Below are positions 8,985 through 24,773 of a DNA stretch of 64,000 bases, piece by piece. The notes beneath the pieces are model-generated. The model did not search any database. It was not told where the DNA came from and was given only the letters and a program-made list of their open reading frames with translations. This DNA comes from Aureimonas altamirensis (GTDB taxonomy: Bacteria > Pseudomonadota > Alphaproteobacteria > Rhizobiales > Rhizobiaceae). The position numbers and the translations under genes are program-made. Numbering within the stretch: position 1 is the stretch's first letter; each line of letters opens with the position of its first letter. The stretch is from assembly GCF_001463885.1 (NCBI RefSeq), contig NZ_BBWQ01000011.1:186001-250000 (forward strand). Direction: 5' to 3'.

Positions 8985-12308
<3,324 letters not shown>

Positions 12309-14504: not shown

Positions 14505-15509
14505 TCAATCGACGGCGTTCCAGCGCTCCACGAAATCGTTCGTGTAGACGGCATTCAGGTCGGCAATGGGCTCTTCGAGGTCGCCCGACTGGACCAGACT
14601 GTCCTGCCATGCAACCCAGGCTTCATGGTCCTGGTAGCCGAACCCCTTCTCCGGTTCGAACGGCGTCTGGCGGACGATGATCTGCTCCACCAGCGCCTTG
14701 ACGAAGTCGCGGTCCTCGGCCTCCTGCGGATTGATGGTGGCGATGTGGTCCACCACCGTATCGATGTTTTCCGGCTTTTCGGCAAAGCGCGCGCCCTTCA
14801 CGATGGCCCGACCGAAGCGCTCCACCACTTCGGGGTTTTCATCGACATAGGAAGTCATCGCCGCAAGCCCGTTGCCGAAGAACTTGCGGAACCGGTCGGG
14901 GGTGATGTTGCGCACGAGGATGCCGCGGCTGTTGAGGATGGCCGCATCGCCGGTCGCCGCCGCATAGGCGTCGATGTCCCCGCGCGAGAAGGCCGCGATG
15001 GCCAGCCCGCCATCACCCACCACGAGGAAGGAATAGTCGGTGCCCTCCGTCATGCCGGAATCGTTGAAGATCGAGCGTGTGAAGGCGGCCTCCGCACCGT
15101 CCGCCGTGCCGATGCCGATGACTTTGCCCCTGAGCTTCTCGGGCGTATCGGCCTCGGACGCCTCCGGCACGACGAGGCCATAGGAACTGTTGGGGTTGAG
15201 GCGATAGAGAAATTTCACGTCCAGATCGCGCGCCCGTGCCGACAGGAACGGGCCGGCGCCCGGATTGCCGATCTGCGCCTGCCCCGATGCCAGGGATTGT
15301 AGCACCGCGCCGGACCCGTTCAGCGCCTCCACGCGCACATAGAGCCCCTCATCCTCGAAATAGCCCTCGCCCATCGCGACGGCGATCGGCAGCAGCGGCA
15401 CGTAGCTCGGGTTCGGGACGGCGATTATGATGTCCTCCGCCCTCGCCCCTGTGACTGCTGCCAGCAAAGCCGCAGCCAGCGACATGATGATCCTGCCATG
15501 TTTTTGCAT
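14505..15509 (-). CDS. orphan ABC transporter periplasmic binding protein (NMT1/SsuA-like)
   Basis: 334-residue exported binding protein: Sec signal peptide (about 1-24, ending GARA), then a type-2 periplasmic binding fold of the nitrate/sulfonate/thiamine-precursor group. Typical features are PLLPIAVAMGEGYFEDEGL (about 37-55), LASGQAQIGNPGAGPFL (about 74-90), LRGKVIGIGTADGAEAAF and FSRGDIDAYAAATGD. GGGAGG stands 8 bases before the ATG. No permease or ATPase gene is adjacent; the neighbours are a divergent GntR regulator and an FAH-family enzyme, so the ligand may be a small organic acid or ring compound, but this is only inference from context. Confidence 0.82.
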   Translation of the reverse strand: MQKHGRIIMSLAAALLAAVTGARAEDIIIAVPNPSYVPLLPIAVAMGEGYFEDEGLYVRVEALNGSGAVLQSLASGQAQIGNPGAGPFLSARARDLDVKFLYRLNPNSSYGLVVPEASEADTPEKLRGKVIGIGTADGAEAAFTRSIFNDSGMTEGTDYSFLVVGDGGLAIAAFSRGDIDAYAAATGDAAILNSRGILVRNITPDRFRKFFGNGLAAMTSYVDENPEVVERFGRAIVKGARFAEKPENIDTVVDHIATINPQEAEDRDFVKALVEQIIVRQTPFEPEKGFGYQDHEAWVAWQDSLVQSGDLEEPIADLNAVYTNDFVERWNAVD

Positions 15510-15529
15510 TTTTTATCCTCCCTAGAAAA

Positions 15530-15541
15530 ATAATGCATTAT
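15530..15541. promoter_or_regulatory. 12-base palindrome in the binding-protein/gntR divergent promoter
   Basis: ATAATGCATTAT is a perfect palindrome located 21 bases upstream of the minus-strand binding-protein gene and 42 bases upstream of the divergent GntR-type regulator, followed immediately by a further TAATGC half-site. Position and symmetry fit an autoregulatory operator for the GntR protein. This is inference; no binding data can be read from sequence. Confidence 0.4.
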
Positions 15542-15582
15542 AATGCCGTCTCTATCGATGACGGACGGCTTCCCTAATCCTC

Positions 15583-16281
15583 ATGCTCGAAACGACCCTC
15601 CCGGAACACGCTGCGCCCGCCAGATCCACCGCTGCAAGCACGGCCTTCGCCGCCATCCGGCGCGACATACTGAGCGGCGCGCTGGAGCCGGGGCGCAAAT
15701 TGCGGATCGACGGCCTGTGCAAGGCCTATGGCGCAACGATCAACCCCGTCCGCGAGGCATTGAACCGCCTGACCTCCGAGGGCCTCGTCACCCAGGAGGA
15801 CCAGCGCGGCTTCACCGTGGCGCCGATCTCGCTGGAAGACTGGCGCGATGTTGTGCGGGCGCGCTGTTTGATGGAAGGCTGCGCCCTGGGCGAGGCGATC
15901 CGAAATCGCGACGAGGCATGGGAAGAGCGCGTGGTCGTGGCCTTGCACTGGCTGTCGCGCACCCGGCACTGGAGCGCCGACGAAAAGACCGCCAACCCCG
16001 AATGGGGCCCAAGGCACAACGCATTCCACGACGCCCTCCTTTCCGCCTGCGGTTCGCAGATCATGCTGGCCTATTGCCGGGAACTTCGGGAGCGCGCCGA
16101 CCGATACCGGCACATCGCCTCCACCAATTTCAAGCGACGCGACTCGCTGGACGAGCATCGGGCCATCGCCGACGCGGCCATGGCCGGAGATACGGAACTG
16201 GCCGTCGCCCGGCTGACGCAACACTACATGACGACATTCGCCGTCATCGAACGCTATTTCGGCCGCGACCCGGCGGCCTGA
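15583..16281 (+). CDS. GntR-family transcriptional regulator (FCD subfamily)
   Basis: 232-residue DNA-binding repressor/activator. The N-terminal winged helix is recognisable from AFAAIRRDILSGALEPGRKL (about 21-40), INPVREALNRLTSEGLV (about 52-68) and the wing QEDQRGFTVAPIS. The C-terminal ligand-binding domain is the helical FCD type, with metal-ligand-like residues in RHNAFHDALLSACG and LDEHRAIADAAMAGD. It is transcribed divergently from the orphan binding-protein gene and converges on the FAH-family gene with 6 bases between. It probably controls one or both. No good ribosome site is visible before the ATG, which may be leaderless or weakly translated. Confidence 0.88.
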   Translation: MLETTLPEHAAPARSTAASTAFAAIRRDILSGALEPGRKLRIDGLCKAYGATINPVREALNRLTSEGLVTQEDQRGFTVAPISLEDWRDVVRARCLMEGCALGEAIRNRDEAWEERVVVALHWLSRTRHWSADEKTANPEWGPRHNAFHDALLSACGSQIMLAYCRELRERADRYRHIASTNFKRRDSLDEHRAIADAAMAGDTELAVARLTQHYMTTFAVIERYFGRDPAA

Positions 16282-16287
16282 CGCCTA

Positions 16288-17157
16288 TCAGGCCGCGGCC
16301 ACCACGGTGTTGCGAAGGGCCGGGATACCCTCGATCTCGATCTCCACGACATCGCCCGGCTTCATGAAGACCGGCGGTGTGCGCGCCTGTCCGACGCCGG
16401 AGGGCGTACCGGTTGCGATCAGGTCTCCGGGCTCCAGCGTCATCGCCTGCGAGGCATAGGCGATGATCCGCGCAACGGAGAAGATCATGTCGTCGGTATT
16501 GCCGTCCTGCATGACCGCACCGTTGAGGCGCGACCGTATCCAAAGGCCGGCGCCGCCGGACGGCAGTTCGTCGGCCGTGACGATGGCGGGGCCGTAGGGG
16601 CCGGTCGCATCGAAATTCTTGCCGGCCGTCCATTGCGTCGTATGCTTCTGGAAATCGCGCAGCGACCCGTCGTTAAAGGCCGTGTACCCGAAAACGGCTT
16701 CGAGCGCCGTCGCCTCATCCACGTTCCGGACGCGCTTGCCGATCACCACGACGAGCTCCGCTTCAAAGTCGAGCCGCTCCGAGGCCTGCGGCGCGACGAT
16801 GGCGCCACCCGGCGGCAGAAGGCTGGTGCGCGTGCGCAGGAACAGCGTCGGAAACTCCGGCACCGCACGGTCGCGTCCACCCTCGCGAATGTGCTCCAGA
16901 TAGTTGAGCCCCATGCAGATGAACTTGCCATGGCCGGGCACCGGCTCGAGCAACTCCGCCTGCGAAAGCTCCACGCCGGGCGTGGTGGTAACCGCCAGCG
17001 CCGCGCGGATATTGGACAAAAGCGCCGTGCCGCCGTCGATCACGCCGATCATCGTCTCGGGAGAGCCCGGAACGAGGTCCGATACGGAATAGACCTTGCC
17101 GTCTGCCACGACGCCGACAATGGGCCCACGCGTGGATTGGTAAGTGACGAGCTTCAA
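16288..17157 (-). CDS. fumarylacetoacetate hydrolase family protein (2-hydroxyhepta-2,4-diene-1,7-dioate isomerase-like)
   Basis: 289-residue metal-dependent hydrolase/isomerase of the FAH superfamily, acting on C-C bonds of beta-diketone or ring-cleavage acids. Motifs are KFICMGLNYLEH, the metal-binding LDFEAELVVVIGKRVRNV (E-x-E type), GYTAFNDGSLRDFQ, GKNFDATGPYGPAIV and ATGTPSGVGQARTPP. The start is taken as the TTG at 17157 (translated LKLVTYQS) because GGGAGG lies 7 bases upstream; a longer frame to 17226 begins in poor context. It follows guaD on the same strand (83 bases apart) and may be read with it or from its own promoter. Confidence 0.85.
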   Translation of the reverse strand: MKLVTYQSTRGPIVGVVADGKVYSVSDLVPGSPETMIGVIDGGTALLSNIRAALAVTTTPGVELSQAELLEPVPGHGKFICMGLNYLEHIREGGRDRAVPEFPTLFLRTRTSLLPPGGAIVAPQASERLDFEAELVVVIGKRVRNVDEATALEAVFGYTAFNDGSLRDFQKHTTQWTAGKNFDATGPYGPAIVTADELPSGGAGLWIRSRLNGAVMQDGNTDDMIFSVARIIAYASQAMTLEPGDLIATGTPSGVGQARTPPVFMKPGDVVEIEIEGIPALRNTVVAAA

Positions 17158-17177
17158 ATTTTCCTCCCGAGATCGTC

Positions 17178-17194
17178 TTTTCTCGATTAGAAAA
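17178..17194. promoter_or_regulatory. TTTTCT-N5-AGAAAA inverted repeat upstream of the FAH-family gene
   Basis: A 6-base inverted repeat with 5-base spacer lies 21 bases upstream of the TTG start on the minus strand, in an AT-rich patch that also reads TTTTTT nearby. TAGAAAA is shared with the promoter of the orphan binding protein at 15523-15529, at a similar distance from the gene. It may be a promoter element or a shared regulator site; evidence is limited to sequence. Confidence 0.35.
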
Positions 17195-17240
17195 TGTTTT
17201 TTATGCGATGTCCAGAAACTTCGCACAAATTTTGCGGCGG

Positions 17241-18623
17241 TTATTGCTGGGCCTGTGCTGCTTCCTCCGCCGGGCTGCCGGCATAGGCTTCACCGTGCTG
17301 CCGTGGCGGCAAGCCCCTCCCACCCCTCAGGTACGCCGGATGCCCGCCGACATAGGTTGCCGCGATGGCCCGGTCGTCGCCCATCATCAGAAGCGCGAAC
17401 AGCTCATCGTCGAAATTGTCGGCGCGCTGCATCCTGTGCCGCATTTCCGGAGTGGCCCGAGGGTCCAGGACAACCAGGTCCGCCTCCATTCCCGGGGCGA
17501 TCCGGCCGATCCTGTCGCCAAGGTTCATCGCCTCGGCATTGCCTGCGGTCATCCAGTAGAAGGCCTCGACGGCGGTCATCCGCTCGCCCCGCAGCGCCAG
17601 CACCTTGTAGCCTTCGGCCGCCGTTACCAGCATCGAGTAGGAGGTGCCGCCGCCGATATCGGTTGCGATGCCGGTGATGACGCCGGCGCCCTGCAAACCC
17701 TGCCGGTCGAACAGGCCGGAGCCGAGAAACAGGTTGGAGGTCGGGCAGAAGATGGCGCTGGCCCGCCGCTCGGCCATCGACGCCCGCTCGCGCTCCGTCA
17801 GATGGATGCAATGACCGAACAGCGCGCCGCGCCGCACCAACCCGAAGCGCTCATAGACGTCCAGATAATCCCTCGCCCACGGGAACAACTCCGCAACGAA
17901 GGTGATCTCGGCCTGGTTTTCCGACAGATGCGTCTGGATGGCCATGTCGGGGTTTTCGGCCGCCAGGGCGCCTGCCACCTCCAACTGAGCCTCCGTCGAG
18001 GTGGGCGCAAAGCGGGGCGTAATGGCATAGGACAGGCGCCCGACGCCGTCGAAGCGCTGGATAAGCGCCCGCGACTCGTCATAGGCGCGCTCGGGCGTAT
18101 CCGTCAGCGATGCCGGGGCGTTGCGGTCCATCATCACCTTGCCGGCGGTGATGCGCATGTTCCGCCTCGCGGCCTCCTCGAACAGGCTTTCGACCGATTG
18201 CGGATGCGAGGTGCAATAGGCAGCGGCCGTCGTCGTGCCGTTGCGCAGCAACGTATCCAGAAGGAAGCGCGAGGCCGCGTCGCACACGGCGCGGTCGTGA
18301 TAGCGGCTCTCTTCCGGGAAGGTGTATTTCGACAGCCAGTCCAGAAGCTCGGTGCCATAGGAGGCGATCACCTGCGTCTGCGGCATATGCAGATGCGGAT
18401 CGATGAAGCCGGCCATCACGATGTTGGGGCGATGATCCGTCACCCGAACCGTCGGGTCCAGCAGCGGCGCGATCTCGGCGTAAGCGCCCACCCGCTCGAT
18501 CAGCCCGCCGCGCATGACCACGAGGCCATCCGGATGGTGTATCGGCTGCGCCGCGTCCGCACCGAAGGTGAATACCCGGGCGCGGAGCGCGGTGATGCCT
18601 TCGGCCGCGATCTCGTGGTTCAT
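17241..18623 (-). CDS. guaD: guanine deaminase
   Basis: Amidohydrolase of 460 residues converting guanine to xanthine, feeding xanthine dehydrogenase encoded further upstream. Signature residues are the zinc motif FIDPHLHMPQTQVI (HxHxPQ, typical of GuaD), LLDWLSKYTFPEES, NGTTTAAAYCT, IQTHLSENQAEI, FGHCIHLTERE, PTSNLFLGSGLFD and ATDIGGGTSYSML with the zinc Asp. The start at 18623 (MNHEIAAEG) is preferred to 18641 because AGGAG stands 8 bases upstream. A degenerate copy of the end of the BMP binding-protein gene sits immediately upstream, and the AT-rich island separates guaD from the rest of the purine block. Confidence 0.95.
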   Translation of the reverse strand: MNHEIAAEGITALRARVFTFGADAAQPIHHPDGLVVMRGGLIERVGAYAEIAPLLDPTVRVTDHRPNIVMAGFIDPHLHMPQTQVIASYGTELLDWLSKYTFPEESRYHDRAVCDAASRFLLDTLLRNGTTTAAAYCTSHPQSVESLFEEAARRNMRITAGKVMMDRNAPASLTDTPERAYDESRALIQRFDGVGRLSYAITPRFAPTSTEAQLEVAGALAAENPDMAIQTHLSENQAEITFVAELFPWARDYLDVYERFGLVRRGALFGHCIHLTERERASMAERRASAIFCPTSNLFLGSGLFDRQGLQGAGVITGIATDIGGGTSYSMLVTAAEGYKVLALRGERMTAVEAFYWMTAGNAEAMNLGDRIGRIAPGMEADLVVLDPRATPEMRHRMQRADNFDDELFALLMMGDDRAIAATYVGGHPAYLRGGRGLPPRQHGEAYAGSPAEEAAQAQQ

Positions 18624-18645
18624 GCCGATGGCTCCTGTCATGCAT

Positions 18646-18754
18646 GCCGGCGCGGCGATTAAGGCCGCGCCGGTCCTGTCTGTTACTCTTAGTTACCCAC
18701 GCCTCGACGTACCAGTCCATCTTGAGCAGGTCTTCGTCCAAAACGGCCTGCCCC
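18646..18754. repeat. left copy of ~110-base direct repeat flanking the AT-rich island
   Basis: Matches 20054-20163 with seven substitutions and one 1-base indel, in the same orientation. The repeat carries the hairpin that ends the BMP binding-protein gene plus the last ~65 bases of that gene. The left copy carries the frame-breaking indel, so the right copy is the functional one. Confidence 0.92.
18647..18673. terminator. hairpin in left repeat copy
   Basis: CCGGCGCGGC (18647-18656), loop GATTAAG, GCCGCGCCGG (18664-18673): perfect 10-base stem, identical to the one at 20055-20081. No T-run follows. It now lies 23 bases upstream of the guaD start codon, where it could impede read-through into guaD. 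Confidence 0.6.
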
Positions 18755-18760
18755 CAGGCA
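18674..18760 (-). pseudogene. remnant of the BMP binding-protein C terminus
   Basis: Read on the minus strand, this stretch encodes DEDLLKMDWYVE, the same peptide that ends the intact BMP protein at 20097, and the residues before it (GQAVL against GQTVS) still resemble the intact copy. One deleted base shifts the frame before the stop, so the terminal GVRN-stop is lost. Similarity fades beyond about 18770. Only a C-terminal fragment is present, so it makes no transporter protein. Confidence 0.8.
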
Positions 18761-19022
18761 TTTTTCCCGGCTCCATAACCGACTCGAAATCCCACTTCCG
18801 GCACCAACGACTTCGCCTTACGCAACAAGCAATATAAATGTTATTTCAATATTTTTATGATATATCTTTTAAATGGCAGCTCAGCCACGAGCGGCCACGT
18901 CTGACGCGAAGCGCATCAGAGCGCGACCCTGTCTAGTCGAAAGACAAATGACGCATCATTTAAATTGAAACGAAAAGCGCTCGCGTCAAATGCGAGCGCT
19001 AATTGCTTAGAGCGGAAGCCGC
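18761..19022. other. AT-rich non-coding left part of the island
   Basis: No gene is seen. Base composition changes sharply near 18830 to AT-rich sequence (for example 18838-18872). It contains one strong hairpin, annotated separately, and then the ribosome site AGCGGAAG for the following reading frame. No integrase, transposase or tRNA sequence is visible. Confidence 0.7.
18976..19000. terminator. hairpin AGCGCTCGC/GCGAGCGCT in the island
   Basis: A perfect 9-base stem (18976-18984 with 18992-19000) and 7-base loop GTCAAAT. On the minus strand it is followed by TTTT, so it would act as an intrinsic-like terminator for leftward transcription. On the plus strand it sits 22 bases before the island gene's ATG. 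Confidence 0.55.
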
Positions 19023-19988
19023 ATGTCTAAATCGACCAAAGATATTGGGTTTCTTTGTATCACATTTTCCTTATTTGTAATAGCATTGATTTCCTTCCAC
19101 CAATTATATAAAGAACATTTGATTTATAATGATCTGACTTATCTATCGACTGAGAAATATGGCGTTCTTATAAACTATATACACAGCAATAGTTACGCAA
19201 CACGCGATCCAAATCGGCCACTTAAGGTGTATGTCGACGAAGCTGTCTCTGCGGATGACTACCGAACTCTTACCGACATCTATTCTCTTTATGCCGATTT
19301 GTCTGGGCAAGATATCGAAGCTTCGCGCTTTGATATAGATCATGCAGAGGAATACTCGACCTATATCATAGTAAATAAAAATGTACCTGACCCGGATATA
19401 AGCCATCAATTTGCACGTCGAGCAGTAGAAAAAGTTCGTTCTTACTTAGAATCTATATACTCTGAAAATCCCACGGGTCATCTCTTCTTTTCAAATTTAT
19501 TCAATGTGCTTTTAACTCGTTATGATGCGCCATTCTTTTTTAATGATGACTTTCCGAAGATTGACTACGCTGCGGCAATTGCTGGCGCTATGATCCCTAT
19601 AAATAATAGCACCATTCAGTCGTCCGTAATATATATAAATATTCCGCATATCTTTAATATAGATAGCAAAACTTTACAGGATTTTAGAAAATATGTCCTG
19701 CTACAGGAGACTTTCTAAGAGTTTGTGGTCGCTAGCGACGTGGAACTGGACTCTTATCTGGGCATTACGATCCTCAATGATAGGGATTACCTTCTTGGAA
19801 GCCTCAAAGGCAAAGAGCGTATTGAAAATATTATGAAATTTGCATCGCCGAAGCTTTGTTTTCTGGACGTGCTGATGGCAATGACGATGGCTAATAAGCT
19901 GAGCTATGCTGAGTTTCTATACTATTATATCAAGGCGGAAATATTCTATCTTACTACCACCTCGCCATTCATTTCAGAAGAGTGCTAA
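19023..19988 (+). pseudogene. AT-rich membrane-anchored protein gene with in-frame TAA (possible DUF2927-like)
   Basis: One continuous reading frame of 321 codons interrupted only by a TAA at 19716-19718. The first part (231 residues) has an N-terminal hydrophobic anchor FLCITFSLFVIALISF. The second part continues in the same frame (EFVVASDVELDSYLGI). Around the stop, LLQETF-stop-EFVV followed by GITILNDRDYL resembles the LxEExxQ...SIFND region of DUF2927 proteins, where a Gln would stand at the stop, so a CAA-to-TAA change is plausible. This family match is tentative. Codon use is strongly AT-rich, unlike all neighbours, indicating foreign origin. If no second product is made, the visible gene is a truncated 231-residue protein. 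Confidence 0.6.
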
Positions 19989-20053
19989 AAGTCTAGCTAG
20001 ATACGCCGCTATTCATTATTATGCTTTAAAACAACAAATCTGCTTGGAGCCTG
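19989..20053. other. right end of AT-rich island
   Basis: Short non-coding stretch joining the island frame to the right direct repeat. AT-rich up to about 20040, then normal GC. No inverted repeats matching the left end of the island were found, arguing against a classical insertion sequence. Confidence 0.6.
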
Positions 20054-20163
20054 GCCGGCGCGGCGATTAAGGCCGCGCCGGTCCTGTCCGTTACGCTTAG
20101 TTACGCACGCCCTCGACGTACCAGTCCATCTTGAGCAGGTCCTCGTCCGAAACGGTCTGGCCC
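20054..20163. repeat. right copy of ~110-base direct repeat flanking the AT-rich island
   Basis: Intact counterpart of 18646-18754: terminator hairpin plus the last codons of the BMP binding-protein gene. The layout (intact gene end on one side, decayed copy on the other, foreign DNA between) resembles integration into a gene 3' end. Confidence 0.92.
20055..20081. terminator. hairpin downstream of the BMP binding-protein gene
   Basis: CCGGCGCGGC, loop GATTAAG, GCCGCGCCGG: perfect 10-base stem beginning 16 bases after the stop codon on the minus strand. No T-run; a stabilising or terminator-like hairpin at the end of the transporter operon. Confidence 0.65.
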
Positions 20164-21179
20164 GCCGGAACCTTCTCGGCGCCGCTCTGGTCGTTGATGG
20201 GGCCGGCGAAGACGTGGTAGCTGCCGTCGATCGTGCCGTCCACGATCTTCTGGGCAGCGGCCTTCACGTCGTCGGGCATCTTGTCGTTGAAGGGCGACAT
20301 CACCACCTCGCCTTCCTTCATGCCCAGCCACACGTTCTGCGTCTCCCAGGTGCCGTCCAGCACCGCCTGCACGCGCTGCACATAGTACGGGCCCCACTGG
20401 TCCACGATGGCCGTCATGTGGGCATTGGGCGCAAAGCTCTGCATGTCCCATGCCTGACCGAAGGCGATGGCGCCGCGCTTTTCGGCCTCCTGCAGCGGCC
20501 CCGGCGAATCCGTATGCTGGGTGATGACGTCGGCACCCTGGTCCAGCAAGGCGCTGGCGGCCTGCGACTCCTTGGCCGGGTCGTACCAGGAGTTCACCCA
20601 CACGACCTGGGTCTCGAAATCCGGGTTCACCTTGCGGGCCGCCTGCGTGAAGGCGTTGATGCCCATGACCACTTCGGGAATCGGGAACGAGGCGACATAG
20701 CCCGCCTTGCCGGATTTCGACATCATGCCGGCGATGGTGCCGAGTACGGCGCGCCCCTCGTAGAACTTGGCATTGTAGGCGGCCATGTTCTCGGCGGTCT
20801 GGTAGCCGGTCGCATGCTCGAACTTCACGTTCGGGAACTGCTTGGCCACCTTCAGCGTCGGGTTCATGAAGCCGAACGAGGTGGCGAAGATGATGTCGTT
20901 GCCGTCCTGCGCAAGCTGGCGGATGACGCGCTCGGCGTCGGGCCCTTCCGCGACGTTTTCGACATAGGACGTCTCGACCTTGTCGCCGAGTTTCTCCTCC
21001 AGGAACTTGCGCCCCTGGTCGTGCGCGAAGGAATAGCCGAAATCGCCCACCGGGCCGACATAGACGAAGGCCGCCTTGACGGGGCCTTCATGCGGCTGGG
21101 CCGAGGCCGTGCCGGCCACGGCGAAGGACAGGAGTGCGGCGGCGCCCAGCATGAGCTTGCGGCGGGTGGTGGCGAACAT
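20097..21179 (-). CDS. BMP-family ABC transporter binding protein (nucleoside/purine)
   Basis: Exported receptor, 360 residues, of the basic-membrane-protein/PnrA family, whose members bind nucleosides. Signal peptide about 1-27 (ASA cleavage context). Family features are AFVYVGPVGDFGYSFAHDQG, ATSFGFMNPTLKVAKQFPN, FEHATGYQTAENM, the FEGRAVLG-like FYEGRAVLGTIAG, NSWYDPAKESQAASALLDQG, DVITQHTDSPGPLQ and AWDMQSFAP. It is followed by two permease genes and an ATPase upstream on the same strand, and by guaD downstream beyond the island. The context of xanthine dehydrogenase and guanine deaminase points to purine bases or nucleosides as ligand. Confidence 0.9.
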   Translation of the reverse strand: MFATTRRKLMLGAAALLSFAVAGTASAQPHEGPVKAAFVYVGPVGDFGYSFAHDQGRKFLEEKLGDKVETSYVENVAEGPDAERVIRQLAQDGNDIIFATSFGFMNPTLKVAKQFPNVKFEHATGYQTAENMAAYNAKFYEGRAVLGTIAGMMSKSGKAGYVASFPIPEVVMGINAFTQAARKVNPDFETQVVWVNSWYDPAKESQAASALLDQGADVITQHTDSPGPLQEAEKRGAIAFGQAWDMQSFAPNAHMTAIVDQWGPYYVQRVQAVLDGTWETQNVWLGMKEGEVVMSPFNDKMPDDVKAAAQKIVDGTIDGSYHVFAGPINDQSGAEKVPAGQTVSDEDLLKMDWYVEGVRN

Positions 21180-21209
21180 GGACTGTACTCCTCTGTCGGT
21201 TCTTGTCAG

Positions 21210-22136
21210 TCAGGCGGTGGGGCGGAACGGCTTGCCGAGGCAAGCCGGCGCGGTATTCCTGGCGCTTGCCTTGCGCGCCGAGATCAATGCCAGCACGACG
21301 ATCGTCGCGATGTAGGGAAGGCTGGTCAGGAACTCCGGCGCCAGCCCCGACCATCCGGCGGCCTTGGCCTGCAGCTCCAGCGTAATGACCGCGCCGAACA
21401 AATAGGCGCCCAGCAGCAGCCGGCCGGGCCGCCACGACGCGAAGACGACCAGCGCGATGGCGATCCAGCCACGCCCGGAGGTCAGCCGCTCGGCCCACAT
21501 GGGCGTCAGCACGAGCGAGAAGAACGAGCCGCCGAGACCGGCCATCGCCCCGCCGAAGAGCACCGCGAGATAGCGCACCCTCAGCACGGGATAGCCGATG
21601 GAATGGGCCGAGGTATCGGACTCGCCCACGGCCCGCAGGATAAGCCCCGCACGGCTGTATTTGAGGAACCACCAGACGCCCAGCGTCAGGATCAGCGAGG
21701 CATAGACCAGCGGCGAATAGCCGAAGACGACACGCCAGATCGGGTCCTGCGCCAGCGCGGCCGGGAAGATGCTGCCGAAGGCCGGCGTCGTCATGCCGAC
21801 GTAGTTTGCGCCCACCAGGGCCGAGACACCGGTGCCGAAGATGGTGAGAGCCAGTCCGGTGGCGACCTGGTTGGCGGCCAGCGTCAGCGTCAGGTAGCCG
21901 AAGATCAGCGAGGATGCCGCAGCCGCAGCCATCGCCGCCAGCGCGCCAAGCGCCGGAACCCCGGTGGTGACGGACACGATGAAAGCGGTTACGGCCCCGA
22001 TGAGCATCATGCCCTCGACGCCGAGGTTCAGCACGCCCGACCGCTCGACCACAAGTTCGCCGAGCGCGGCGATGAGGATCGGGGTGGCGGCGGCAACGAC
22101 GGCCACGAAGATGGCCACGGCGAATTCGGGCGTCAT
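21210..22136 (-). CDS. ABC transporter permease (nucleoside/purine, NupQ-like)
   Basis: Inner-membrane permease of 308 residues, BPD-transp-2 type, with about nine hydrophobic helices (for example FAVAIFVAVVAAATPILIAA and AYLFGAVITLELQ). Landmark ERSGVLNLGVEGMMLIGAV near residue 30 is typical of this half of the pair in BMP-type nucleoside importers. Start ATG at 22136 overlaps the stop of the companion permease by 4 bases (22133-22136). 30 bases separate it from the binding-protein gene. Substrate by association with that protein. Confidence 0.9.
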   Translation of the reverse strand: MTPEFAVAIFVAVVAAATPILIAALGELVVERSGVLNLGVEGMMLIGAVTAFIVSVTTGVPALGALAAMAAAAASSLIFGYLTLTLAANQVATGLALTIFGTGVSALVGANYVGMTTPAFGSIFPAALAQDPIWRVVFGYSPLVYASLILTLGVWWFLKYSRAGLILRAVGESDTSAHSIGYPVLRVRYLAVLFGGAMAGLGGSFFSLVLTPMWAERLTSGRGWIAIALVVFASWRPGRLLLGAYLFGAVITLELQAKAAGWSGLAPEFLTSLPYIATIVVLALISARKASARNTAPACLGKPFRPTA

Positions 22137-23221
22137 GCCTTTACCCCTTCGCGGCCGAATGCCAGCCGGTAGCGCACGAAGATATCCGACGCCAGCAGGA
22201 AGAACAGCAGCATCGCCTGGAACACGCCGATGGCGGCGGCCGGAAGGCCGATGCCCGTCTGGGCGCTCTCGCCGCCCACATAGGTGAGCGCCAGCACCAG
22301 CGCCGAAACGATGATGCCAAGCGGATGCAGCCGGCCGAGAAAGGCAACGATGATGGCGGTGAAGCCGTAGCCGGTGGGAAACGAAGGCACCATCTGCCCG
22401 AACGGTCCGGACACCTCGAATACGCCCGCCAGCCCCGCAAAGCCGCCGCCGGCCAACAGGCAAAGCCAGATAATGCGCCCATCGCGGAAGCCGCCATAGC
22501 GCGCGGCGTTGGGCGCCAGGCCGGCCACGCGCACCTCGAAGCCTGCGATGGTGCGCGCCATGACGAACCACACCGTCAGTGCTGCCGCCAACGCCAGCGG
22601 AATGCCGAGATGGATGAGCGTGCCGGGAAAGACCGTCGGCAGCGTCTGGGCAGAGGAGAACATCGCCGTCTGCGGGAAGTTGAACCCCATCGGGTCCTTC
22701 CAGGGGCCGCGCATCAGGTAATAGAGAAGCTGGATGGCGGTATAGTTGAGCATCAGGCTGGACAATATCTCGCTGACGCCCAGCCGCACGCGCAGAAAGG
22801 CCGGGATGGCTGCATAGAGCGCGCCGCCCGCAATGCCCGCCACCACCATGGCCGGCAGAATCCAGGGTCCATCCATATCGAGCGTCAGAAGGGCGATGCC
22901 CGTGCCGGCGAGCCCACCGACGACATACTGCCCCTCGGCGCCGATATTCCAGACATTGGCGCGGAAACCGATAGACAGGCCGAGGGCGATCAGCGCCAGC
23001 GGCGCCGCCTTCACCAGAAGATCCTGCCAGCGATAGGGATTGAACAGCGGCGTCACGAAGATTTCGCGAACGGCCCCCACCCCATCATAGCCGAGCAGGG
23101 TGAACAGCAACGCGCCTGCAACGAGGGTCGCCACCACGGCAAGTGCCGGCGACAGATACAGCATGGCGCGCGAGGGCTGCAGCCGTGGCTGGAAGCGCAG
23201 GAACGAGCCGGCGTTACGCAT
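22133..23221 (-). CDS. ABC transporter permease (nucleoside/purine, NupP-like)
   Basis: 362-residue membrane protein, BPD-transp-2 family, the larger permease of the pair. Visible: a basic N terminus (RFQPRLQPSR), helix YLSPALAVVATLVAGALLF, the conserved SIGFRANVWNIGAEGQYVVG, GVSEILSSLMLNYTAIQLL and FEVRVAGLAPNAARYGGF. The ATG at 23221 (MRNAGSF) overlaps the ATPase stop by 8 bases. An upstream in-frame start at 23278 would lie deep inside the ATPase gene and is less likely. Confidence 0.9.
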   Translation of the reverse strand: MRNAGSFLRFQPRLQPSRAMLYLSPALAVVATLVAGALLFTLLGYDGVGAVREIFVTPLFNPYRWQDLLVKAAPLALIALGLSIGFRANVWNIGAEGQYVVGGLAGTGIALLTLDMDGPWILPAMVVAGIAGGALYAAIPAFLRVRLGVSEILSSLMLNYTAIQLLYYLMRGPWKDPMGFNFPQTAMFSSAQTLPTVFPGTLIHLGIPLALAAALTVWFVMARTIAGFEVRVAGLAPNAARYGGFRDGRIIWLCLLAGGGFAGLAGVFEVSGPFGQMVPSFPTGYGFTAIIVAFLGRLHPLGIIVSALVLALTYVGGESAQTGIGLPAAAIGVFQAMLLFFLLASDIFVRYRLAFGREGVKA

Positions 23222-24773
23222 GGGGCCCCGCCTCCGCACCTGTGGTTTCCACGTGCGTCTCGCCAGCGCCATCGCCATGCACGCCGCCCATCAGCAGGCC
23301 GATCTCCTCCAGCGTGATGGCCCCCACCGGATGCGGCTCCGACAGGCGGCCGCCGTTGATGACCGCGATGCGGTCGCTGATCTCCAGAAGCTCGTCCAGA
23401 TCCTGGCTGACGACGACGACAGCGGATCCGCGCGCCGCAAGGTCCAGCATGGATTGCCGGATAAAGCCTGCCGCTCCGGCGTCGACGCCCCATGTCGGCT
23501 GGGCGACCACCAGCACGGCCGGCTCCTGCATGATCTCGCGTCCCATGATGTATTTCTGCAGATTGCCGCCCGAGAGGCTCGACGCGGCGGCCTGTGGCCC
23601 CGTCGCCCGCACGGAGAAGGCGCGGATGATCTCGGCCGCATAGGCCGACGCCTTGCCGAGCTTCAGCAGCCCGCCGGATGCAAGCCCCCGGCGCTGGCGC
23701 GCCGACAGGATGGCGTTTTCCGCAAGGCTCATGCCCGGCACCGCGGCGTGGCCGTTGCGCTCTTCCGGCACGGTGGCAAGGCCGGCGGCGCGCCGGCCCG
23801 ATACGCCCCGTGCCGTGATATCGACGCCGCTCAAGGACACACGCCCGGTCAACCCGTCGCGCGATTCACCGGAGAGGGCGGCGACCAGCTCGTTCTGCCC
23901 GTTGCCGGCAACGCCGGCGATGCCCAGCACCTCGCCGGCCCGCACGGCAAGGGAGATATCGGCAAGGGTCGTGCCGAAGGGCGGCTCGCCCGGCAGGCCC
24001 AGGCCCTCGACCAACAGTTTCACCGGCCCATCCACCGTCCCGCCATGTCGGGAGACGTCGGAAAGCGTCGCGCCGATCATCATCTCGGCCATGGAGCGCG
24101 CCGTTTCCCGGGCGGGGTCGCAGGTGGCGACCACCTTGCCGCCGCGCAGGATGGTGGCGCTGTCGCACAGGGTGCGGATCTCGTCGAGCTTGTGCGAAAT
24201 GTAGAGGATGGAGCACCCCTCGTCGCGCAGCTTGCGCAGCGTGGAGAACAGCACCTCCACCTCCTGCGGCGTCAGCACGGAGGTCGGCTCGTCCATGATG
24301 AGGATGCGCGGCCGCCCCAGCAGCGCGCGGACGATCTCGATGCGCTGGCGCTCGCCGACGGACAGGGTGTGGACGTCGCGGTGCGGATCGAGTTCCAGCC
24401 CATAGGCCCGCATCACCTCGGCGATCCGTCCCTCCAGTTCGCGGCGGGGCGGCGGCTCGTCCATGCCGAGGGCGATGTTTTCCAGCACGGTCATCGCCTC
24501 GAACAGGCAAAAGTGCTGGAAGACCATGCCGATGCCACGGGCCCGCGCTTCCCGTGGGGAGGCGATATTCACCAACGTTCCGTCGATGGCTACGCTGCCC
24601 TCGTCGGCCTTCTGGACGCCGTAGATAATCTTCACCAGGGTCGACTTGCCGGCGCCGTTTTCGCCCAGCAGCGCATGAATGCGCCCCGGCTCGACGGCAA
24701 AGGAGACGTCGCTGTTGGCCACCACCCCAGGATAGCGCTTCGTCACATGGCTGAGCTCGAGCCGTGGCGGCAT
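23214..24773 (-). CDS. ABC transporter ATP-binding protein with two nucleotide-binding domains (NupO-like)
   Basis: 519-residue double ATPase, as is normal for nucleoside and simple-sugar importers. First domain: Walker A GENGAGKSTLVKIIYG, FQHFCLFEAMTV, signature LSVGERQRIEIVRALL, Walker B ILIMDEPTSVLTP, SHKLDEI. Second domain: GVAGNGQNELVAALSG (degenerate Walker A, usual for this family), signature LSGGNLQKYIMGREI and VVAQPTWGVDAGA. The ATG at 24773 is preferred because GGGAG is 4-8 bases upstream; ATG 24797 is also possible. Lies 63 bases after xdhC, so transporter and xdh genes are likely one transcript. Confidence 0.92.
   Translation of the reverse strand: MPPRLELSHVTKRYPGVVANSDVSFAVEPGRIHALLGENGAGKSTLVKIIYGVQKADEGSVAIDGTLVNIASPREARARGIGMVFQHFCLFEAMTVLENIALGMDEPPPRRELEGRIAEVMRAYGLELDPHRDVHTLSVGERQRIEIVRALLGRPRILIMDEPTSVLTPQEVEVLFSTLRKLRDEGCSILYISHKLDEIRTLCDSATILRGGKVVATCDPARETARSMAEMMIGATLSDVSRHGGTVDGPVKLLVEGLGLPGEPPFGTTLADISLAVRAGEVLGIAGVAGNGQNELVAALSGESRDGLTGRVSLSGVDITARGVSGRRAAGLATVPEERNGHAAVPGMSLAENAILSARQRRGLASGGLLKLGKASAYAAEIIRAFSVRATGPQAAASSLSGGNLQKYIMGREIMQEPAVLVVAQPTWGVDAGAAGFIRQSMLDLAARGSAVVVVSQDLDELLEISDRIAVINGGRLSEPHPVGAITLEEIGLLMGGVHGDGAGETHVETTGAEAGPHA

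Follow-up and report, generated by a model that had tools for sequence, protein, structure and literature searches.

Between the gene for a BMP-family substrate-binding protein (BMP) and guaD, which lies downstream on the same strand, the Aureimonas altamirensis genome studied here (G000) holds about 1.3 kb of AT-rich foreign DNA, which contains one orphan gene split by a stop codon and is enclosed by direct repeats of the BMP 3' end. The insertion is specific to this lineage, being later than the split from the two nearest relatives, and is best read as ordinary horizontal transfer with an unusual scar, that is, as the acquisition of a single gene with an unusually long duplicated flank. As to its origin, we see an even chance that a foreign gene was captured in a single event at the hairpin behind BMP, and that template switching or staggered-break repair copied the native flank in the process.

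The window, i.e., the whole stretch of DNA analyzed, spans 64,000 nucleotides (G000:C11:186001-250000) of a 4.19-Mb genome in 32 contigs, and the host species is represented by this one genome. Judged by gene content, BMP and guaD probably form one purine-uptake operon. Starting from BMP, the order is native gene end with hairpin, foreign DNA, a copy of the BMP end that passes from poor to good, a hairpin, and guaD (Table 1). The probable guaD start (18623), chosen from the sequence, has an AGGAG motif ahead of it, and the BMP protein has 99% amino acid identity to those of the two nearest relatives compared, G005 and G012.

Table 1. Features of the insertion locus (positions within the window)
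Feature	Coordinates	Strand	Remarks
guaD-like guanine deaminase (Amidohydro_1)	17241..18623	-	Pfam PF01979, 6e-49
Left hairpin, 10-bp G+C stem	18646..18674	-	Immediately upstream of guaD, likewise in empty-site relatives
Left repeat, outer zone: copy of BMP 3' end, stop region, hairpin	18646..18746	-	
Left repeat, inner zone	18747..18774	-	17/28 columns identical to right copy
AT-rich foreign insert, 1,299 bp	18755..20053	no strand	40.1% GC
Terminator-like hairpin	18976..19000	-	Oriented towards guaD
Orphan gene, 321 codons	19023..19988	+	One in-frame TAA
Right repeat: true BMP 3' end and hairpin	20054..20183	-	
BMP-family substrate-binding protein gene, intact	20097..21179	-	Pfam PF02608, 1e-49

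Empty site in the nearest relatives

In both G005 and G012, the alignment runs to 18754 and resumes at 20054/20055, with nothing between, and across this junction the BMP stop is followed by the hairpin and guaD. Both thus carry one repeat copy, with guaD directly after the BMP hairpin, which is the arrangement that the preliminary description, made from the window alone, had expected of strains lacking the island. That description had also named the opposite outcome, in which all relatives carry both copies and the AT-rich stretch; G005 and G012 are without the island. Positions 19001 to 20000 had no match in 19 kb of either genome. Orphan genes occur singly throughout bacterial genomes, often by a route of entry that is hard to trace; at this locus, empty site and duplicated flank are both readable, so the order of events is visible.

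A survey in wide flanks covered 18 of the 20 other genus members (all except G002 and G019) and showed the order BMP-puuD-guaD in 16 of them and BMP-guaD in the remaining 2, G005 and G012. Replacement of puuD by the island was rejected, since puuD is also absent between BMP and guaD in these two empty-site genomes; most simply, the gene order suggests that puuD was lost before the insertion took place. A second puuD and a second guaD are found elsewhere in each of the genomes G000, G005, and G012. In G000, these extra genes lie together in less than 10 kb of another contig (G000:C18:308017-317142), the guaD copy at 54% and the puuD-type gene at 60% to the genus puuD.

Base composition sets the insert apart as well. 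It had been described as about 1.3 kb with a GC content far below that of the rest of the 64 kb, and with 40.1% GC for 18755 to 20053, compared with 60.0% in the lowest other 1,299-base stretch of the window, the description was accurate (such stretches outside the finding average 66.5% GC, with a standard deviation of 2.2). Along the 450 kb of contig examined, which make up 10.7% of the genome, no other 1-kb stretch falls below 52% GC. The same 450 kb contain four direct-repeat pairs (E ≤ 1e-8, identity of at least 80%, at least 50 bp, spacing below 60 kb), and only that of the insert encloses such low-GC DNA, the other three being tandem copies with gaps of about 60 to 200 bases. Also noted elsewhere on the contig were tandem duplications, with 1.1-kb copies at 82% (G000:C11:419595-421802) and, at about 86%, an array of repeats spaced by 322 and 403 bases (G000:C11:5553-6297).

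The outer zone of the left repeat duplicates the lineage's own BMP end

The direct repeats (18646-18774 and 20054-20183) align by BLAST at 92.7% over 110 bp (E = 6e-40), with sub-blocks at 95% over 58 bp (18646-18703/20054-20111) and at 82% over 73 bp (18702-18774/20111-20183). The preliminary description had put them at about 110 bases with seven substitutions and one indel, in agreement with the roughly eight differences of the BLAST alignment; its assignment of the right repeat as the true end of BMP (PF02608) with its hairpin was confirmed, and the left repeat is indeed a frameshifted copy, one base having been lost, such that the BMP end is no longer encoded. Beyond the 110 bp, similarity runs about 27 nucleotides further inward at 61%, which gives the left copy two zones: an outer zone identical to the right copy in 96 of 102 columns and an inner zone identical in 17 of 28. 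Differences between the copies therefore concentrate at the inner join (11/28 versus 6/102; Fisher p = 4e-5, for a boundary picked after viewing the alignment). A match of 17/28 would be improbable for unrelated sequences (binomial, 2e-4, at an assumed match rate of 0.27), which leaves three origins for this zone: BMP sequence that has diverged, the arm of an element, or sequence heavily altered at the join.

Over the outer 102 columns, the left copy equals the right copy at 96 positions and each of G005 and G012 at 85; being closer to the right copy than to the relatives, it was in this zone duplicated from the BMP end of the lineage itself. Across 130 columns, a four-way alignment revealed eight states common to both copies against both relatives, 13 changes confined to the left copy, none confined to the right copy, and 4 that were unclear. 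With no right-only change in 130 columns, nothing marks the right end as having been delivered by a foreign element. The left copy would probably have decayed from an intact copy; of its 13 changes, 10 fall in the inner zone and 3 in the outer zone, where the case for decay rests on these 3 left-only changes versus 0 right-only changes.

The earlier statement that the ends share no inverted repeats was nearly right: a 9-of-10 inverted match exists at the inner ends (18766-18775/20045-20054) and was equalled or bettered in 33 of 1,000 shuffles.

An orphan gene of the Rhizobiaceae

The inserted frame (19023 to 19988) encodes a protein to which no function is assigned, with a hydrophobic N-terminal segment, and is interrupted by a TAA codon at 19716-19718. 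Both pieces of the split gene align to full-length relatives; since the C-terminal piece, whose frame is unchanged, aligns with the C termini of the Rhizobium altiplani and Ensifer proteins (33% to that of R. altiplani), the gene is complete but for the stop. At the rate of change of the outer zone (3 to 6 of 102), 1.2 to 2.4 in-frame stops would be expected, and one is seen.

In the searches made here, the only relatives to emerge were those of Rhizobium sullae, R. altiplani, and Ensifer sp. LC11, three Rhizobiaceae to which the first piece is related at 22 to 28%. The R. sullae relative (NZ_CP104144.1; 26.5%, E = 1e-14), the sole match among 72,556 plasmid records, is itself broken near its C terminus, and that of Ensifer sp. 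LC11 (NZ_MBSO01000002.1; G233) matches at 23%. The R. altiplani relative (NZ_LNCD01000064.1) came from a short-pattern scan of named genomes, which yielded 2 relatives among 152 pattern matches and, being limited by its patterns, did not return R. sullae. Apart from the genome itself, relatives of the gene were present in none of 150 related genomes, 1 of 393 family members, and none of 384 class members. A profile search gave 1 of 393, apart from a weak third match, in G260 (E = 0.004, five stops), that was discarded as chance, and 0 of 356. None were found in viral or phage collections.

No Pfam family matched any of the four family members at the cut-off, a resemblance to DUF2927 being dropped for want of such a match (a literature search on DUF2927 with Rhizobium also found nothing). 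With the first piece, the R. sullae protein, and the Ensifer protein as queries, NCBIfam and PADLOC returned nothing at the cut-off or at an E value of 0.01, and the best PHROG match had an E value of 0.011. Among solved structures, the best match by sequence reached an E value of 0.098, and structure prediction from three sequences gave a mean pLDDT of 39.8.

The DNA common to the R. sullae and R. altiplani loci is confined to the gene span, so the gene appears to travel alone; at the Ensifer locus, the neighbors differ from those at the other family loci, as judged by eye in ORF lists. Compared with the repeats described here, the gene-enclosing direct pairs at the R. altiplani and Ensifer loci are just 21 to 23 nucleotides long, at 77 to 86%, and the R. 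sullae stretch has no direct repeats of at least 20 nucleotides. At the R. altiplani locus (L098), a 44-nucleotide inverted pair (7492-7535/9933-9976; 82%, E = 1e-5) surrounds the family gene and the neighboring regulator gene and may represent a common upstream site or the end of an element. Beside the gene at this locus, without enclosing it, lies a decayed partial copy (L098:9108-9235 and 9690-9864; 74 to 80%) that derives from the N-terminal part of the neighboring response-regulator-like gene. In Ensifer sp. LC11 (L035:8668-10948), two further membrane-type genes, neither with a clear Pfam family, come after the family gene, which adjoins an HlyD/ABC export pair of opposite transcription; a GC dip spans the family gene and the genes after it.

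Proposed capture at the BMP hairpin

The outer edge of the repeat lies at most 1 base from the foot of a strong hairpin (a single case, in a gap of about 50 bases), and the 49-nucleotide hairpins fold at -25.5 and -29.8 kcal/mol. This position suggests how the pieces could have been joined. After the split from the two nearest relatives, a foreign AT-rich gene of about 1.3 kb entered between BMP and guaD, in an event that copied about 100 to 130 bp of the native BMP end, leaving BMP whole and a spare copy beside guaD. Most likely, replication or repair went wrong at the strong hairpin that follows BMP: a fork or a break would have stalled at the hairpin foot and copied or captured a foreign fragment, after which a restart about 130 bp back would have copied the BMP end a second time, making errors close to the join. 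Staggered-break repair with filler DNA would have nearly the same outcome. No donor DNA was found, so microhomology at the joins is unreadable.

A partial precedent comes from starving Escherichia coli. In the parts of PMC3161906 that deal with amplification junctions, 16 of 40 are placed in REP sequences, and fork blocking by secondary structure is the favored cause. The template switching described there resembles the present locus in having a junction at a strong hairpin and a direct duplication of nearby sequence; it differs in that resident DNA is duplicated or inverted, with microhomology at the joins, whereas the piece inserted here is foreign. A literature search for similar single-gene insertions produced nothing close among the matches listed.

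Some observations tell against capture. A repeat composed of a gene end and a hairpin is likewise the mark of gene-end integration; it is the inner zone, possibly foreign from the start, that accounts for the excess of left-only changes; and decay of the left copy is to be expected after any type of insertion. A bolder and rather unlikely version of capture makes the hairpin behind a gene an entry point for foreign DNA that needs neither transposase nor integrase: the stalled fork would have copied the 1.3-kb gene and stepped back about 130 bp, and the long "target duplication" left behind would mimic gene-end integration. If true, such scars could be a general, overlooked entry route for single orphan genes.

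Alternatives involving a mobile element

The main rival is a decayed integrase-type island, which we consider possible, with a probability clearly below that of capture. Here, the BMP 3' end would have served as the attachment site and been restored, and the integrase and most of the cargo would since have been lost, or the insert would be a satellite moved by the integrase of another element. Consistent with this, the repeat covers the gene end and the hairpin and BMP is left whole; the weak inner zone, with its 10 of the 13 left-only changes, could be the arm of the element, and the genome has five tyrosine-recombinase matches elsewhere (XerC/XerD and others pooled). Repeats of 12 to 98 bp flank tRNA-gene islands and prophages of Sinorhizobium meliloti, according to the portion of PMC11476347 concerned with them, and coding genes are the site of 43.4% of mapped islands (PMC12424338). 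Like islands of the Islander/TIGER type, the locus has low-GC DNA between gene-end repeats, a whole gene, and an empty site in relatives; unlike them, it has repeat copies that share the lineage's own sites, and it measures 1.3 kb and has no integrase, whereas that software requires an integrase and has a 2-kb floor (PMC12424338). Against it, both copies share states absent from G005 and G012, so that an element would need to have carried the lineage's own sequence.

The search for the machinery of such an element speaks against it. As the preliminary description had noted, there is no integrase inside: among ORFs and family matches in 18646-20183, no recombinase was found. Neither the insert nor the repeat has a second copy elsewhere in the genome. 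Among 200 related genomes, matches to the BMP end, of whatever strength, turned up in 49, none of which contained a second strong one (at most four candidates were scored per genome; second matches were short, with E values of 0.001 to 0.01). An exact 23-mer of the BMP core occurred in no viral contig. Relatives of the genome's integrases were found neither in the window nor in 48 BMP loci of 30 genomes, with 3 of 5 queries valid and flanks that often extended to 1.5 kb only.

Of the features of an integrase-type island, the locus therefore has the flanking repeats of the target gene end and the empty site in relatives, while no integrase was found among its ORFs and family matches and no recurrence at the same target in the related genomes searched; gene-end direct repeats around foreign DNA do not by themselves prove an integrase. 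A transposon or MITE fits no better, given the single copy, the duplication of about 100 bp, and an inverted match that 33 of 1,000 shuffles reached, nor does a phage satellite, there being no phage-like genes and no counterpart in phage collections. No tRNA was found in 15000-24000, and two matches to known RNAs at the site were both far below cut-offs. Nothing shows a moving element of the present day. The proposal of integration into the gene 3' end with restoration of that end is thus supported in part, namely as to the insertion, the empty site, and the foreign composition; end-restoring integration and the suggested satellite or non-autonomous element gained no support, with no recombinase found inside, no other copy in the genome, and no relative of the gene in phage collections. 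The relic of a larger island, also suggested there, is possible.

Single-crossover homologous integration of a circle or plasmid carrying the lineage's BMP end, most of the molecule being lost afterwards, would also yield direct repeats around foreign DNA, with both copies from the same lineage. We regard it as improbable: the circle would have needed to contain the BMP end beforehand, a single 46-nucleotide stretch (E = 0.03) is all that plasmid DNA has in common with the insert, and the genome has no other copy. Least credible by far is an old duplication common to the relatives or an assembly artifact, to which reliance on a single assembled genome might lend some room: the empty site in G005 and G012 rules out the former, the insert lies inside a contig of 475,567 bases, and the inserted gene has relatives in the same family.

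Consequences for guaD

Whatever its origin, the insert may uncouple guaD from transcription through BMP: the hairpin at 18976-19000, if working, would stop read-through towards guaD, and read-through from BMP may be cut. A scan of 18500-20300 on both strands for sigma-70-type promoters found none, which is weak evidence in an alphaproteobacterium. The dN/dS ratio of guaD is 0.114 versus G005 and 0.127 versus G012, and 0.106 between G005 and G012. No relaxed selection on guaD was seen, its constraint resembling that of the G005-G012 comparison; guaD is either served by a further promoter, or the insertion is too young for an effect to show. Finally, a xenogeneic silencer such as MucR is a candidate that, going by the relevant part of PMC8857273, could act on foreign AT-rich DNA of this kind.
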